Shown in pieces: positions 37,961 through 44,903 of a DNA stretch of 45,407 bases. The position numbers were made by a program, and so were the translations under genes. The first letter of the stretch is position 1; the number at the start of each line of letters is the position of its first letter. The stretch spans positions 1 through 45,407 of the forward strand of contig JAJDAN010000061.1 of the NCBI GenBank assembly GCA_029261855.1, in the 5' to 3' direction. Under the pieces are notes generated by a model. It did no database searches. It worked only from the letters and a program-made list of their open reading frames with translations, and was not told the DNA's origin. Source of the stretch: Deltaproteobacteria bacterium. GTDB lineage: Bacteria > Myxococcota_A > UBA9160 > UBA4427.

Positions 37961-38874
37961 CGATGGCGCGCCACGAAGTCGCGCACCAGCGCGGCGGTTT
38001 CTCGGGGCTTCTCCATGTGGATGAAGTGGCCGGACCCTTCCACCGTCGCACGTTCGAGCTGCTGCACTCCCGCGAGGCGCTCGGCCAGGATGTCTTCGGG
38101 CAAAGGGCCCCAGGTATCCGCCACGGATCCGATCACGGCGAGCAACGGCACGCGCAGCTGGGCGTACGACTCGCCGATCCAGTCCGGCTTCCAAGGACCG
38201 AAGCCGCTGCCGCAGTGCGGGTCGACCTTCCAACGCCAACCATCCGCATCCTCTCGCGCGCCGTAGTAGAGGAAGTAGCGGAGCCAATCCCGCGACAGCA
38301 GCGGGTTCTGCTGGCTGCGGCGGTCCACCAGCGCGTCGAAGCCGTCGTACGGTCGCCAGCTGCGGTTTTCCCGGGCGCCGCGTCGGAAGTCGAGATACTG
38401 GGCAAAGCGCTCGGGGATGGACTTCTCGGGCTCGCTTCGACGCCGATGATCGAAGCCCTCGGGCGGCGGACCGAAGCCGTCGAGGTCGATCACCCCGAGC
38501 ACGTCGTCGGGCAGGGCGATGGCCGCGTCGAGCACCTGACCTCCGCCCTTGCTGTGACCGAGCAGGAAGCCGGTACCGCCCGCGGCGCGCAGGACCGCGA
38601 TGATGTCGGCGACATCGTTGTCCCAGGTGTAGTTCTCGACCCAGCCCGAATCGCCGTGCCCGCGCGCGTCGAAGGCGACTACCCGCAGCTCGTCCGCCAG
38701 CAGCGGCGCGAGGCAGTCGAAGCCGCGGCTGTGATCGAACATGCCGTGGGCGCACACGACGGGCAGGGCGTCCGGGTCGCCCCATTCGTGTACCTGCAGC
38801 TCCGCGCCCAGGGAGTGCACGCGATAGCTGCGCGCGGGCGCGACGGCGCCGGGGAAGGAAGGCTCTTCTCGCAT
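37957..38874 (-). CDS. alpha/beta hydrolase (305 aa)
   Basis: Complete serine hydrolase: CAHGMFDHSRGFDCLAPLLA (oxyanion HG), VVAFDARGHGDSGWVENYTW, nucleophile GHSKGGG (Ser108) and the catalytic His in VEGSGHFIHMEKP near residue 283. No signal peptide. The Lys after Ser (GHSKGG) recalls esterases and C-C bond hydrolases. The stop of the SNF2 gene overlaps its ATG by one base (TGATG), and it overlaps the inactive paralogue downstream. Substrate unknown. Confidence 0.9.
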   Translation of the reverse strand: MREEPSFPGAVAPARSYRVHSLGAELQVHEWGDPDALPVVCAHGMFDHSRGFDCLAPLLADELRVVAFDARGHGDSGWVENYTWDNDVADIIAVLRAAGGTGFLLGHSKGGGQVLDAAIALPDDVLGVIDLDGFGPPPEGFDHRRRSEPEKSIPERFAQYLDFRRGARENRSWRPYDGFDALVDRRSQQNPLLSRDWLRYFLYYGAREDADGWRWKVDPHCGSGFGPWKPDWIGESYAQLRVPLLAVIGSVADTWGPLPEDILAERLAGVQQLERATVEGSGHFIHMEKPRETAALVRDFVARHR

Positions 38875-41825
38875 CAGCCGAGCAGCGCGAGCAGGTCGTC
38901 GCGCGAGAGCCCGTCGGATTGCCCGCTGCCCGCCAGCACGACTTCACCCAGCGCACGCTTGCGGGCGTGAAGGTCGAGGATGCGCTCTTCGACGGTGTCG
39001 CTGGCGATCAGCCGGTGCACCACCACCGGGCGCGTCTGCCCGATGCGGTGCGCCCGGTCCGCGGCCTGGTCCTCGACGGCTGGGTTCCACCAGGGGTCCA
39101 TCAAGAAGATGTGATCTGCGGCGGTCAGGTTGAGGCCCGTACCGCCGGCCTTCAGCGACACGAGCATGACGGGCGCACCCTCCGCGCTCTGGAAGCGTTC
39201 GACGACGGCGCTGCGTGCGCGGGTCGCGCCGTCGAGACGCTCGAAGGGGATGCCCGCGGCTTCGAGGTGGGGCTCGACGAGATTCAGGAACGAAGTCCAT
39301 TGGGAGAAGACGAGCGCCTTGTGACCATCTTCGACGGCCTGGGCGGTCCGTTCGACCAGCAGGTCGACCTTCGACGAGGCGTCGGCGATCTGTCCGGGTA
39401 CGAGTGCGCTGTGGCAAGACGCCTGGCGCAGTCGCAACAGCGCTTCGAGCGCCGCGATCACACTGCCGCCCGACTGCAGCCGTTCGACCACCGGCCGTAC
39501 GGTGGCGGCCTCGACGGCGCGGTAGACCTGGCGTTCCTCGTCGGAAAGGTCGAAGCGCAGCACCACTTCGGTGCGCGGCGGCAGCTCGGGCGCCACGTCC
39601 CGCTTGAGTCGGCGCAAGACGAAGGGCCGGATTCGCTCGCGCAGGCGAACGCCCATTTCCGAGTCGCCCTCGGAGATCGGGCGGGCGTAGCGGTCGCGGA
39701 AGTCCCGCCGGCCACCGAGCAGACCGCGATTCAGGAAGTGCAGCTGGCTCCAGAGCTCGTCGAGACGGTTCTCGACCGGGGTGCCCGTCAACGCCATCCG
39801 GAAGCGGCTGCGCAGGCCGTAGGCCGCCTGGGCCACCTGGCTCTCGGGGTTCTTGATGTTCTGGGCCTCGTCGACGACGACCACGTCCCAGTCGACTGCG
39901 GTCAGCGCTTCGGTGTCGAGTCGCAGGATCGCGAAGCTCGTGATCGTGAGGTCCGCCTTTGCGTCCAGGACACGTCCCGGCCCGTGGTAGGTGCAGACCC
40001 GCAACCCCGGACGGAAGCGCCGGGCCTCGGCCTCCCAGTTGTGGATCAGGCTCGTGGGGGCCACGACGAGGCCGCGGCCCTCGAGTGCGCACAAGGCCTG
40101 GATCGTCTTGCCGAGACCCATGTCGTCGGCGAGCAGGGCGCCGAGGCCGAGGTCGCGCAGGAAGCAGAGCCAATCGACGCCCTTGTGCTGGTAGTCGCGG
40201 AGCTCGCCGTTCAGGTCCTTGGGCAGCTCGGCTTCGGGGATGCCTTCGAAGTCGCGCAACAGGGGCTCGAGCCGGTCGAGGCTGGGGGGCGTCGGGTAGT
40301 CGAGGTCCTCGCACAGGCGCGCGAGGTCGGGCAGGGAATGGGTGGGCACGCGGCCGTCGGCGTCGCGTGCGGCCAGCAGGTCGGCGATGCGGTGGCCGAA
40401 GCGCTCGAGCCAGTCTTCGGGGAGCGCGGCGACGCCGCCTCCGCGCAGACGGACGAGAGAGGTCCCTTCCTGCCAGGCGCGCAGCACGGCTTCCGGTGAC
40501 GCGCGACGATCTGCCTCGTTGCCTGCTCCGGCGGGCTCGCCGTCCGAAGCGCCGGCGTAGTCGCCCTCGCGTGGAGACACGAAGCGCACGTTGACGATGT
40601 CGTCCTCGATGTCGAGCCGCGGCTCGAGCGGTTGGGTCAGCGTGAAGGATTCGTGGGCGTCGCCCTGGACCTCGCCGCGCCAGGCGGCAAGACGCGCGGC
40701 GAACGGGATGGCCTGCTCGGGGTTGAGGTTGGTTCGCCGTCCAGGCACCAGGCTGAGTTCTTCGCGCAGCCGCCGCAGCTCGGACTTCTCGAGGTTCTCG
40801 TCCCGGATCGGGATGGCGCCGCGCAGATGCACGAGCCGATTTCCGTCGACCCGGGCGTTCGGCGGGTCGCCGTAGACCAGCGTTGCCAGGACCGAAAGCT
40901 GGTTGGCCTTCTCGCGGACATCGATGGCGATCCGCGGTCGCTCGCGCCCGGTCTTCGGCAGGCGCGTGGTCGCGATCTCGACGGGGATGCGCTCCTCGAG
41001 GGACGGCAGCACTTCGGTCACGAGATCGGCTACGCGCTCGTTGGGAAAGAAGCGTCCGGTCGGAAGATCGGCGAGCTCGCGCCCGGTCAGTCCCGAAGGC
41101 CCGACGAGGTGGAGCTGGTCCCCGCACAGCACCGTGTCGTTGTTGAAGCGTTCGGTGATGCTCGGGTCCTGACGCACGGACAAGGTGAAGCCGCCCTCCG
41201 CATCGACCAGGAGTCCGTGCAGCCCCGAAGGCTCGCCCGAGACCTGGATCGGCTCACCGTCGAGCTGGACGTCGTCGCAGCGCGACAAGGGCTCGATCAG
41301 TCGCTTCATGGCGGCGCGGTCCATGGGGCCTCGGCGGTTGGCGCCGAGGGCGCGTTCCACCGCGACGTCCGCCGAGCTCGCGGCGAAGCTCGGACCGTCG
41401 ACCCGGCCCGACGCGATCGCGGCAAGCGTCGAACGCAGGGGCTTGGCCTCGCCGTCCACGACCACGTAGCGCCGGAAGGAGAGCCCGCCCTCGTGGCGCG
41501 TCAACGCGTAGCGGATGCCACCGGTGGCGCGTTCCTGCTTCGGCAGCACGTCTCCCTGCTTGCGCGACTGCCGCAGGGCGATGATCGCCGCCGCGACGTG
41601 CTCGCAGACCGGCTCGGAGGTCGAGCACTCGCACTCCCAGTCCTCGTCTCCGGGGTACAGGGTGACTGTCGGCGAGATCATTCCGCCGCGAGTCGAGACC
41701 TGCAGGACGACCTCGTCGCGCTGGTCCCGCTTGCCGATCACGGCGTCCGCGCGCGCGAGCTCGACGCCCCGGGACCACACACGGGGCGAGCATTCCGATC
41801 GGATCGTGTCGAAGAGGGCCTGCAT
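38874..41825 (-). CDS. SWIM-domain SNF2-family helicase/ATPase (983 aa)
   Basis: DNA-translocating ATPase of the Swi2/Snf2 family, bacterial RapA/HepA-like. N-terminal SWIM zinc finger [12 protein letters not shown] (Cys65, Cys67, Cys74, His76), then about 450 residues of uncharacterised linker, then the motor: [20 protein letters not shown], Walker [11 protein letters not shown] near residue 568, Walker [15 protein letters not shown] near 651, [53 protein letters not shown] and [16 protein letters not shown] near 928. Starts 1 nt after the CCA-like gene. Likely acts on DNA- or RNA-bound protein complexes; the actual role is unknown. Confidence 0.93.
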
Positions 41826-41826
41826 G

Positions 41827-43023
41827 TCAGCGTCGGCTCCAGGCGAGGATTGCTTCGCGGAGCCGGTCCGGTTCGTTGCGCGCCGGGTCGGCGGCGACCC
41901 ATTCGGCGGCGAAGCGAAGCGCGGCGCCCACCTGGCGGCCGGGCGGGCAATCGAGCAGGGCCATGACGGCGGAGCCGTCGAGACAGAGAACCGTACGCGC
42001 TTCGCTGCGGGCCGTGTTCTGCCGCACGCGTTCGAGGCCGTTCCGCACGGCCTCCAGCCGCTTGCGCGCCTCGGGGTCGTCACCGGCCTGTGCGATCTCC
42101 CACTCGCGCATCCGGAAGAGCGCCGCGAGATCGGTTTCGGAAAGCTGGCGGTGTGCGCGCAGCACGGACCGGTCCCGGTTGGCGTTCAGCTTGGTATCGA
42201 GCGGGTGGTGTTCGAGCAGGCGCGCGACGTGCTGGGAACGGACGAGCCCGAAGCGCAGGCGCTTGAGCAGCGCGCGTGCTGCCGCGCCGCGCAGCCACGC
42301 GGCCAGGCGAAGCTCGAGCACCGCCGGCATGGCGCCCACGAGTGCCGCCGCGTCCGGCCGTACGTCCCGGACCAGCCGACGTTCGACACCCGTCTTACGC
42401 AGCAGGGAAAGGCCGCGTTCCGCGCCGTCCGCCAGCAGGATGCGACACAGCTCGGCGCGCAGCCTCGTCGACGAGACGGACACGAGAGACGGTGCCACCT
42501 GGGTCATGGCCTGTTCGACGCTCGGGTCGCACACGAGGTCCCATTCGGCGACCAGGCGCGCGGCGCGCAACACCCGCACCGGGTCTTCGTGCATGCGGGC
42601 GAGGGGGTCGCCGACGCCGCGCAGGACGCCTGCCTCGAGATCCGCGAGACCCGACGACGGATCGATCCACTCCTCGCGGACGGGCGCATAGGCCATGGCC
42701 AGCACCGTGAAGTCCCGGTGGGCCAGGTCGTCCTCGATCTTCGGGCCCCAGCGCAGCCCCGTGACGTCGATGGGCGCCGGTCCCGCCGGAACCGTGACCA
42801 CGCCTCGATCCGGATGCGTCGGGACGGCGTGCGGGAACAGGTCGAGGCAGTCGTCGACACTGGCGGGCGTGCACAGCTCGAAGGCCGCCGGCGCGTCGCC
42901 GCGCAGCAGGCGTGTGAGACCCTCTCCGACGAGCCAGGCGTCGTGACCCGCCCGGTCGAGACACGAGGCGGCTTCGCGCACCGCCGCGGGCAGGGTCGCG
43001 TGCTTTTGATCCAGGAATGACAA
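41827..43023 (-). CDS. CCA tRNA nucleotidyltransferase-like protein with degenerate active site (398 aa)
   Basis: Homologue of class II CCA-adding enzyme/poly(A) polymerase. Conserved downstream motifs are excellent: [56 protein letters not shown]. Yet motif A, normally GGxVRDxLLGxxxxDxD, reads [18 protein letters not shown]: the second Gly is Glu34, the Arg-Asp is Thr-Arg, and the metal-binding Asp pair is Ala47 and Glu49. The third carboxylate survives (IDVTGLR). Catalysis by the usual two-metal mechanism is doubtful. Start is a TTG (43023), TAGACT 9 nt upstream. First gene of the SNF2-hydrolase operon. Confidence 0.85.
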
Positions 43024-43032
43024 GGTCGGCAG

Positions 43033-43038
43033 AGTCTA
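43033..43038 (-). promoter_or_regulatory. candidate -10 box (TAGACT) of the CCA-like/SNF2 operon
   Basis: TAGACT 9 nt before the TTG at 43023. The divergent TAACAT box for the methyltransferase gene is 13 bp away. Confidence 0.4.
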
Positions 43039-43051
43039 GTGGATCGGCAGG

Positions 43052-43057
43052 TAACAT
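43052..43057 (+). promoter_or_regulatory. candidate -10 box (TAACAT), leaderless methyltransferase fusion
   Basis: GG-TAACAT, 7 nt (CGCGCGC) and the GTG at 43065; no Shine-Dalgarno for this start. Confidence 0.45.
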
Positions 43058-43064
43058 CGCGCGC

Positions 43065-44903
43065 GTGAGCCCTTCTGCATCTCCCGCTGCTTCCCGGATC
43101 GTCCGCGCGCCCGGCGTGAGCCTGGACCTCGATGCCCTGTTGCTGCGGATCTGGCCCGAATCGCAGCAGGCGGACCGGGAGGGCCTCGTTTCGCGGGGGT
43201 CGGTTCTCGCGGCCGGCGACAAGCTGCGCAGGCTGCAGACGCGGATCGCGCCGGGCGAGCGCCTCGAGCTGCGCGAGCCCTTCGGCGAGAGTCCCGTACT
43301 GCCCAGCCTCGCCGCCGGAGTGCGCGGCGGGCGGGTGCTGGTCCCGGGGCTGCCCTGGCGGTCCGGCACCCTGGCCCGGCGGCGGGGCATGACGAGCGCG
43401 GTCCGATTCGAACGCCTCGACGAGCGCGACGGCGTGCAGCTACTCGAGGTGACGCCCGCCGAGGGCGAGGCCGAAGCCTCGGCTTTCTTCGAAGACGTTC
43501 TCCGCAGCCTGGCGGAATCCGGTCGACCCGTTCTCGGAGACGTGCTTCGCGGCGGGATCCTGATCGCCGGCGGTCTGCGCCTCGTGGCTGGCGATGCATC
43601 GCTCGCGTGGCCCGGCGAGCCGGTCTTTGCCGGTGCGTCGGGCGAGGCACCGGTGTTGCACGTATCCCGTGCGACCGAGCGCATCGTCGGGCGGGGACAC
43701 CCCTGGATCCTGCACGACGACGAGAGTGACGATGCCAGTCGCTTCGCGCCCGGGACCCGGGTACAGGTCGAGGGCCCGGACGGCGCCTCTCTCGGCGTCG
43801 CCCACTGCGACGGGCCGGGGCAGCTGACGGCCCGCATGTGGGCAGGCCCCGCGCAGAGCGGCGGGTCCGACAGCGTCGAGGCCCGGGTGGCCGAAGCGCT
43901 CGGGCGACGGTCCGCGCTGCTCGAGCCCGGGTCCCGTCGCGCGCGGACCGACGTGTTCCGGTTGCTGCACGGAGAAGGCGATCGTCTGCCCGGACTCTTC
44001 GTGGACCGTCTCGGTCCGCTGCTGCGCGTGCTCGTGACGAGCGAAGGCGCTCTGGGGTACCGAGACCGGGCCCTCGATGCGTTGGTGCGTGGACTCGAGG
44101 GTTCTCTCGGCGGCGACCCCGGTGTGATCGAAGTGGTGCACCTGCGGGAGCGGCCGCCAGGCGATCTCGTCTGTACCCGGGTCTTGCGGGGCGCGCTTCC
44201 GGACGCGCCGGGAAGCACTGCTTCAGAAGCCGGAGCCAGCACGCGGCTCGTGGTCCAGGAGGCGGGGGTGCAATTCCTCGTCGACCCGGGTCTCTCCCGG
44301 CCGACGCGCGCGAGCCCCGGCTTCGGTCTCTATCCGGACCAGCGCGACAACCGCGCGCGCCTGCTGGCGGGCGTGCGAAAGGGAGGACGCCTGCTCAACC
44401 TCTTCGCCCACACCGGCGCCTTCAGCGTTTCGTGGCTGGCGGGGCAGGGCGCAACGGCGGTGAGCGTCGATCTTTCTGGCGCGTACCTGCGCTGGCTCGA
44501 GGAGAACCTGGCGCGGAACGGCATCGACCCGATCGTGCACCAGAGCGTGCGGTCGGACGGACGCCGCTACCTCGAGACCCTCGATCGGAGCGAACGCTTC
44601 GATGCGATCGTCATCGATCCGCCGACTGCCGCCGCCGCCGGTCGGCGTTTCTGGTCCGTCGCGCGAGATCTGCCGCCCCTGATCGCGTCGGCCCTGGCTC
44701 ATCTGCAGCCGGGAGGAAGATTGCTGGTCTCGCGCAACGACCGAAAGCGCGCGGCCCTGCGCGAGCTGGTCGCGGAGGCCGCCAAGCTGAAGGGAGTGCG
44801 GCTCGCGGCGCTCGAATCCGCACCGCCGGGGATCGACTTCCCGCGGCGCAAGGGCTTCCCGGAAGGCGATCCCTTCACGGGGGTCCTGGCGACCCGGGCT
44901 TGA
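43065..44903 (+). CDS. degenerate RluA-type pseudouridine synthase fused to RlmI-type rRNA methyltransferase (612 aa)
   Basis: The C-terminal ~400 residues are an RlmI/RlmL-like SAM methyltransferase: PUA-like start RGHPWILHDDESDD, LPGLFVDRLGPLLRVLV, LYPDQRDNRARLLAGV, SAM motif LLNLFAHTGAFSVSWLAGQG, and IDPPTAAAAGRRFWSV in place of the usual DPPxF, followed by LQPGGRLLVSRND. The N-terminal ~200 residues look like an S4 domain (VSLDLDALLLRIWPESQQAD ... GDKLRRLQTRIAPGERLEL) joined to the C-terminal half of RluA: VRFERLDERDGVQLLEVTP and ESGRPVLGDVLRGG, matching the RluA xxxGHPIVGDxLYGG. The catalytic HRLDxxTSG is absent. Start GTG 43065; an ATG at 43017 would overlap the divergent gene. Confidence 0.85.
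   Translation: MSPSASPAASRIVRAPGVSLDLDALLLRIWPESQQADREGLVSRGSVLAAGDKLRRLQTRIAPGERLELREPFGESPVLPSLAAGVRGGRVLVPGLPWRSGTLARRRGMTSAVRFERLDERDGVQLLEVTPAEGEAEASAFFEDVLRSLAESGRPVLGDVLRGGILIAGGLRLVAGDASLAWPGEPVFAGASGEAPVLHVSRATERIVGRGHPWILHDDESDDASRFAPGTRVQVEGPDGASLGVAHCDGPGQLTARMWAGPAQSGGSDSVEARVAEALGRRSALLEPGSRRARTDVFRLLHGEGDRLPGLFVDRLGPLLRVLVTSEGALGYRDRALDALVRGLEGSLGGDPGVIEVVHLRERPPGDLVCTRVLRGALPDAPGSTASEAGASTRLVVQEAGVQFLVDPGLSRPTRASPGFGLYPDQRDNRARLLAGVRKGGRLLNLFAHTGAFSVSWLAGQGATAVSVDLSGAYLRWLEENLARNGIDPIVHQSVRSDGRRYLETLDRSERFDAIVIDPPTAAAAGRRFWSVARDLPPLIASALAHLQPGGRLLVSRNDRKRAALRELVAEAAKLKGVRLAALESAPPGIDFPRRKGFPEGDPFTGVLATRA

Follow-up and report, generated by a model that had tools for sequence, protein, structure and literature searches.

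A gene for a homologue of class II tRNA nucleotidyltransferases that has lost the residues required for catalysis lies in the window, a 45,407-nucleotide stretch of a deltaproteobacterial genome. Enzymes of this kind occur universally and are, as a rule, essential or under strong selection. Taken as a whole, the explanation that we favor, with slightly more confidence than doubt, is that the product of this gene is a tRNA-binding pseudoenzyme that arose from a CC-adding enzyme after another paralogue had taken over its work. Hereafter, the window gene and its orthologues are referred to as C type, the A-adding-like paralogues as A type, and the HD-domain paralogues as B type, while copies of the C type that retain or have lost the DxD of motif A are called intact and dead, respectively.

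The window protein belongs to the class II tRNA nucleotidyltransferase/poly(A) polymerase superfamily, with matches to PF01743 and PF12627 above the cut-offs and the corresponding fold. Its best match in both sequence (E 5.5e-19) and structure is the CCA-adding enzyme of Bacillus stearothermophilus (1MIV). An AlphaFold model built with 45 sequences of its own family (pLDDT 95.3) could be superposed on 1MIV over 371 residues (Z 28.9), and head, neck, body, and tail, including the conserved tail motif, were all covered. A far more degenerate family member, from genome G024, also gave a confident model (pLDDT 93.2) with the elements in the same order, which we take as supporting evidence because such models lean on the alignment. 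The top profile matches of the window protein are NF009814 and TIGR02692 of NCBIfam, both named CCA tRNA nucleotidyltransferase, with scores far under the curated cut-offs (103 vs 290 and 108 vs 439 bits, respectively). The features of the gene and its neighborhood are listed in Table 1.

Table 1. Location of the window gene, its motifs, and the adjacent genes within the window.
Feature	Position	Strand	Details
Window gene, a dead homologue of class II tRNA nucleotidyltransferases	41827..43023	-	398 aa, TTG start; pLDDT 95.3; Z 28.9 to 1MIV
Degenerate motif A, residues 30-52	42868..42936	-	Gly34->Glu, Arg37->Thr, Asp38->Arg, Asp47->Ala, Asp49->Glu; aligned to 1MIV and 25 intact orthologues
Retained Asp86 at the site of the third catalytic carboxylate	42766..42768	-	All 23 dead copies of the window's family have Asp here
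Site of the missing flexible loop, residues 91-96	42736..42753	-	Third carboxylate to motif B: 19 residues vs 34 (1MIV) and 32 (A-type paralogues)
Motif B, residues 102-108 (HRDFTVL)	42700..42720	-	Arg-Asp kept; Asn108 -> Leu
Motif D, nucleobase template EDxxR, residues 146-150	42574..42588	-	Kept in the window gene (EDPVR), lost in many relatives
Tail motif LxGxxVMxxLxxxPGxxVGxAL...N....L......W, residues 346-395	41839..41988	-	Nearly invariant in dead and intact orthologues; aligns to the 1MIV tail
SWIM/SNF2 ATPase gene	38874..41825	-	Start one base past the stop of the window gene; Pfam SNF2-rel_dom and Helicase_C
SWIM-like CxC-x6-CxH, N-terminal in the SNF2 protein	41633..41598	-	Sequence motif
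Divergent RlmI-like PUA/methyltransferase gene, upstream neighbor	43017..44903	+	Pfam; likely real start near 43116

In active enzymes, motif A reads GG..RD..D-x-D; in the window gene, it reads GE..TR..A-F-E. The alignment to 1MIV runs without gaps through this motif at a constant offset of 7, and pairs Asp40 and Asp42 of 1MIV with Ala47 and Glu49, the second residue of its GG pair with Glu34, and its Arg-Asp with Thr37-Arg38; these are exactly the substitutions listed in a preliminary description of this DNA. That description also called motifs B to D well kept, which is true of motif D and of the Arg-Asp in motif B and not of Asn108, a motif B residue that is invariant among intact orthologues. 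The third carboxylate described for class II enzymes (PMC3925840) is still present; with two of the three carboxylates lost, metal binding would be removed, and the replacement of Gly34 should make triphosphate binding harder as well. For the E. coli enzyme, a mutant with Ala at both carboxylates (AxA) serves as an inactive control (PMC11784652). The window protein thus differs from 1MIV and other active CCA-adding enzymes in lacking the DxD, the GG pair, the RD, and the flexible loop. Judged by these residues, it should not work as a CCA-adding enzyme, and the label of CCA tRNA nucleotidyltransferase would be functionally wrong for it, in agreement with the earlier warning that automatic annotation misleads here. 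Whether the AFE triplet itself is fixed among orthologues had been suggested as a check, and it is not: other lineages have GxA, QxS, HxR, RxS, SxS, and so on, and the idea of a new fixed motif was rejected because the replacements differ between lineages. A sequencing or frame error was also rejected, since the frames are open and the motif loss is shared within the family, as was a chance event in a single genome, since the loss is common to many orthologues.

At the site of the flexible loop, whose absence the preliminary description had overlooked, the window gene is about 15 residues shorter than 1MIV. Intact C copies have 16-19 residues between the third carboxylate and motif B (with one exception, 33), every A type has 32, and the loop is deleted in the window gene and nearly all of its orthologues, intact or dead. 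Among the C-type genes, L036 from genome G055 (family f6) alone is long at this site, with 33 residues. Deletion of the loop is a hallmark of bacterial CC-adding enzymes (PMC7014341). Because it is also found in orthologues with an intact DxD, the ancestor was most likely, as far as sequences can tell, a CC-adding rather than a CCA-adding enzyme. The preliminary term of CCA-adding-enzyme homologue is thus right about a dead homologue and is better replaced by former CC-adding enzyme. The window protein resembles the bacterial CC-adding enzymes of class II (such as AaS of Aquifex aeolicus) in its head-neck-body-tail fold, its deleted loop, and the presence of an A-adding-like paralogue in the genome, and it has orthologues in the same order with intact GG, RD, DxD, and EDxxR. 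Moreover, genomes with an intact C type usually carry just A and C. Unlike those enzymes, the window protein lacks both aspartates of motif A and the second Gly and should not catalyze; as the DxD, present in 26 orthologues of the order, is lost here, the gene is a descendant and not a member of the CC-adding enzymes.

A PF01743 search of the window's genome revealed three proteins, one each of the A type, the B type, and the C type (the window gene). Both other paralogues have canonical motifs with an intact DxD and are thus candidates for the second canonical cca gene that the preliminary description had proposed to look for. The best profile match of the A-type protein is the A-adding enzyme NF041569, and that of the B-type protein is the multifunctional CCA protein PRK10885; the HD domain match of the latter is weak and under the Pfam cut-off. 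Because all of these profile matches are under the NCBIfam equivalog cut-offs, we infer the activities of A and B from them with caution. In addition, CCA is encoded in all 36 distinct tRNA genes sampled from this genome, and a tRNA nucleotidyltransferase would therefore be needed for repair only, unless the unread tRNAs differ. A genome with no other CCA enzyme and with tRNA genes lacking CCA, which had been named as the case against a dead enzyme, is not what we observed.

To place the window gene among its orthologues, 79 genomes of the order were searched, and C genes readable at motif A were obtained from 64 of them. Of these, 26 have an intact DxD and 38 have lost it. All 38 dead orthologues have lost at least one Asp of motif A, and 37 have a residue other than Asp at the second position. 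Gly34 is replaced in 36 of the 37 aligned dead copies and in none of the intact ones, by Glu in 18 of the 23 dead copies of the window's family and by Pro or Arg elsewhere. A gene of the B type accompanies a dead C in 34 of 38 genomes and an intact C in one of 26 (Fisher p = 1.4e-12, raw counts); most of these genomes are incomplete assemblies, in which the absence of B can be an assembly gap. After this pattern had been seen in the first 49 genes, 15 more were read with B scored beforehand, and 13 of them agreed. One exception (G033) has B together with an intact C, and four others (G006, G043, G069, and G074) have a dead C with B not detected, some of which may be explained by incomplete assemblies. 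On the A-type tree, the state of C changes at least five times, and independent phylogenetic pairs gave two concordant, no discordant, and one tied case with uncertain genomes set aside, too few contrasts to reach significance. The raw counts thus show a strong association of B with dead C, and the tree agrees with it, but it is not proven after correction. The loop of B is shortened (19-23 residues) in several genera of the window's family and in G041, as expected if B serves A as its CC-adding partner.

Several other genes of these genomes deserve mention. Those designated L025 and L113 (G043, family f11) represent a C type with ExD and GN..RS, in which catalysis may be at an early stage of loss or partly lost; the genome, 74% complete, yielded no gene of the A or B type. 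At L072 (G056, family f7), a dead C gene is followed, some 3 kb downstream and in the same orientation, by a B-type gene, a linkage seen nowhere else. The B-type genes L082 and L088 of G009 and G015 are near-identical (dS 0.15), and the dS of 1.15 between the C genes L038 and L039 is far larger, which suggests a recent exchange of B between these two species. An extra PF01743 protein of 342 aa (L102, G029:C4:24300-26120) at a contig edge could not be clearly assigned to A, B, or C by score.

The neighborhood of the window gene raises the question of a functional partner. The junction with the SNF2 gene reads TGA-C-ATG, and SNF2 is the next gene downstream, in the same orientation, in all 22 loci examined from the window's family (f1) as well as in the window itself. 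Within the family, this is a genuine operon of long standing, so the preliminary statement that the gene heads an operon with a SWIM/SNF2 ATPase stands for the adjacency and has to be restricted to the window's family: outside it, SNF2 was never seen following the gene, although SNF2 orthologues are present elsewhere in most genomes. It might be proposed that the window protein is a subunit or regulator that recruits the adjacent ATPase to tRNA or other RNA, and the one-base gap, the adjacency at every f1 locus with the gene, and its limitation to the very family whose copies are all dead speak for such a partnership. However, the order of the RlmI-like gene (which adjoins orthologues in families f1, f4, and f8), SNF2, and DnaJ is conserved generally, and the adjacency may be no more than a passive result of it. 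Across the order, SNF2 orthologues share mostly 53-65% identity and in most of it are unlinked to the gene, and dead copies in f4 and f7 have no SNF2 neighbor. In two sister species (G017 and G020), the gene is cleanly lost from between the RlmI-like gene and SNF2 and is thus dispensable there, and SNF2 remains intact, for which reason a dependence of SNF2 on the gene was rejected. Given that SNF2 does not need the gene and that the general gene order is also conserved, we consider a shared function possible and an SNF2-directed role unlikely as the main explanation. The absence of the gene from G001, G007, G013, G025, and G026 was rejected as true loss, since the adjacent genes are absent as well or are found at the edge of a contig.

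The clean loss in two species also fits a slowly decaying relic, functionless after its replacement and persisting either for want of time to disappear or owing to its place at the head of the SNF2 unit. It is in keeping with such a relic that drift has left motif A with a wide variety of residues and that dN/dS in some dead pairs (0.47-0.52) exceeds that of A or B in the same genomes. Nevertheless, the frame is open in every dead copy across the whole family, whereas in a neutral simulation with substitutions only, less than 1% of frames were still open at 0.35 changes per site, so that neutrality would break the frame at the observed divergence. The dN/dS values (Nei-Gojobori) of the measurable dead pairs are 0.17, 0.19, 0.25, 0.26, 0.37, 0.47, and 0.52, and those of two near-saturated pairs are 0.24 and 0.26, where an under-counted dS would only inflate the ratio. 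They are well under 1 in the head and C-terminal parts alike and were taken from relatives outside the genus of the window, whose sole congener has an assembly without the whole region. Among positions invariant in intact copies, the mean retention in the dead copies of the family is 25% for catalytic positions, as picked by the analyst from knowledge of the motifs, and 67% for the others (p = 1.2e-4); for C-terminal invariant positions, it is 77%. All 23 dead copies of the family keep Gly33, Pro84, Asp86, His273, Pro274, Gly362, Gly366, Ala368, Asn383, and Leu388. Residues of the tail and scaffold have thus been selectively retained, and the window gene is not a decaying pseudogene; a relic of the slow kind appears improbable to us. 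With catalytic residues lost in 38 orthologues, by replacements that differ between lineages, and with purifying selection in related dead pairs, the gene has the marks of a pseudoenzyme.

That the protein still transfers nucleotides through a changed active site, relying on Asp86 and other residues, would agree with the invariance of Asp86 in the family and with the motif D EDxxR and motif B Arg-Asp kept in the window gene, but it is very hard to believe with both metal-binding aspartates and the Gly of the GG pair gone, motifs B and D also lost in many family members, and replacements that vary by lineage, unlike a conserved new site.

It seems that the putative tRNA-binding pseudoenzyme arose as follows. 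In the ancestral state, enzymes of the A and C types would have repaired tRNA ends jointly, the former as an A-adding-like and the latter as a CC-adding enzyme. Where the HD-domain B type is present, it would perform the CC-adding step and would have replaced C. The C type would then have lost both metal-binding aspartates along with the triphosphate-contacting Gly, after which polymerization should no longer be possible, while selection presumably kept the folded body and tail of the dead protein. The body and tail of class II enzymes recognize the acceptor and T arms of tRNA (PMC3925840). Because of this recognition, and because the C-terminal parts are the best kept, a tRNA-binding role is favored: RNA binding by the window protein is plausible, and the protein now most likely binds tRNA, or an RNA resembling it, and leaves the RNA unmodified, for example by protecting or presenting tRNA ends or by modulating A or B. 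A bolder version, in which independent catalytic losses after the takeover were followed by re-use and, in the window's family heading the SWIM/SNF2 operon, by a role in directing the ATPase to tRNA or to RNA whose ends resemble those of tRNA, would define a new class of regulatory tRNA-binding pseudoenzyme; we offer it as a tentative and rather unlikely extension. In the open-access literature, we found neither a described pseudoenzyme of the CCA/CC-adding family nor anything relevant on bacterial SWIM/SNF2 operons.

As in pseudoenzymes in general, the fold has remained under selection after the loss of catalytic residues. A dead tRNA nucleotidyltransferase that is kept by selection implies that its scaffold is useful beyond adding nucleotides. 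The order constitutes a natural experiment, with genomes that have A and an intact C, A and B with an intact C, A and B with a dead C, or A and B with C deleted, and the automatic annotation of CCA tRNA nucleotidyltransferase would be wrong for a whole bacterial family.
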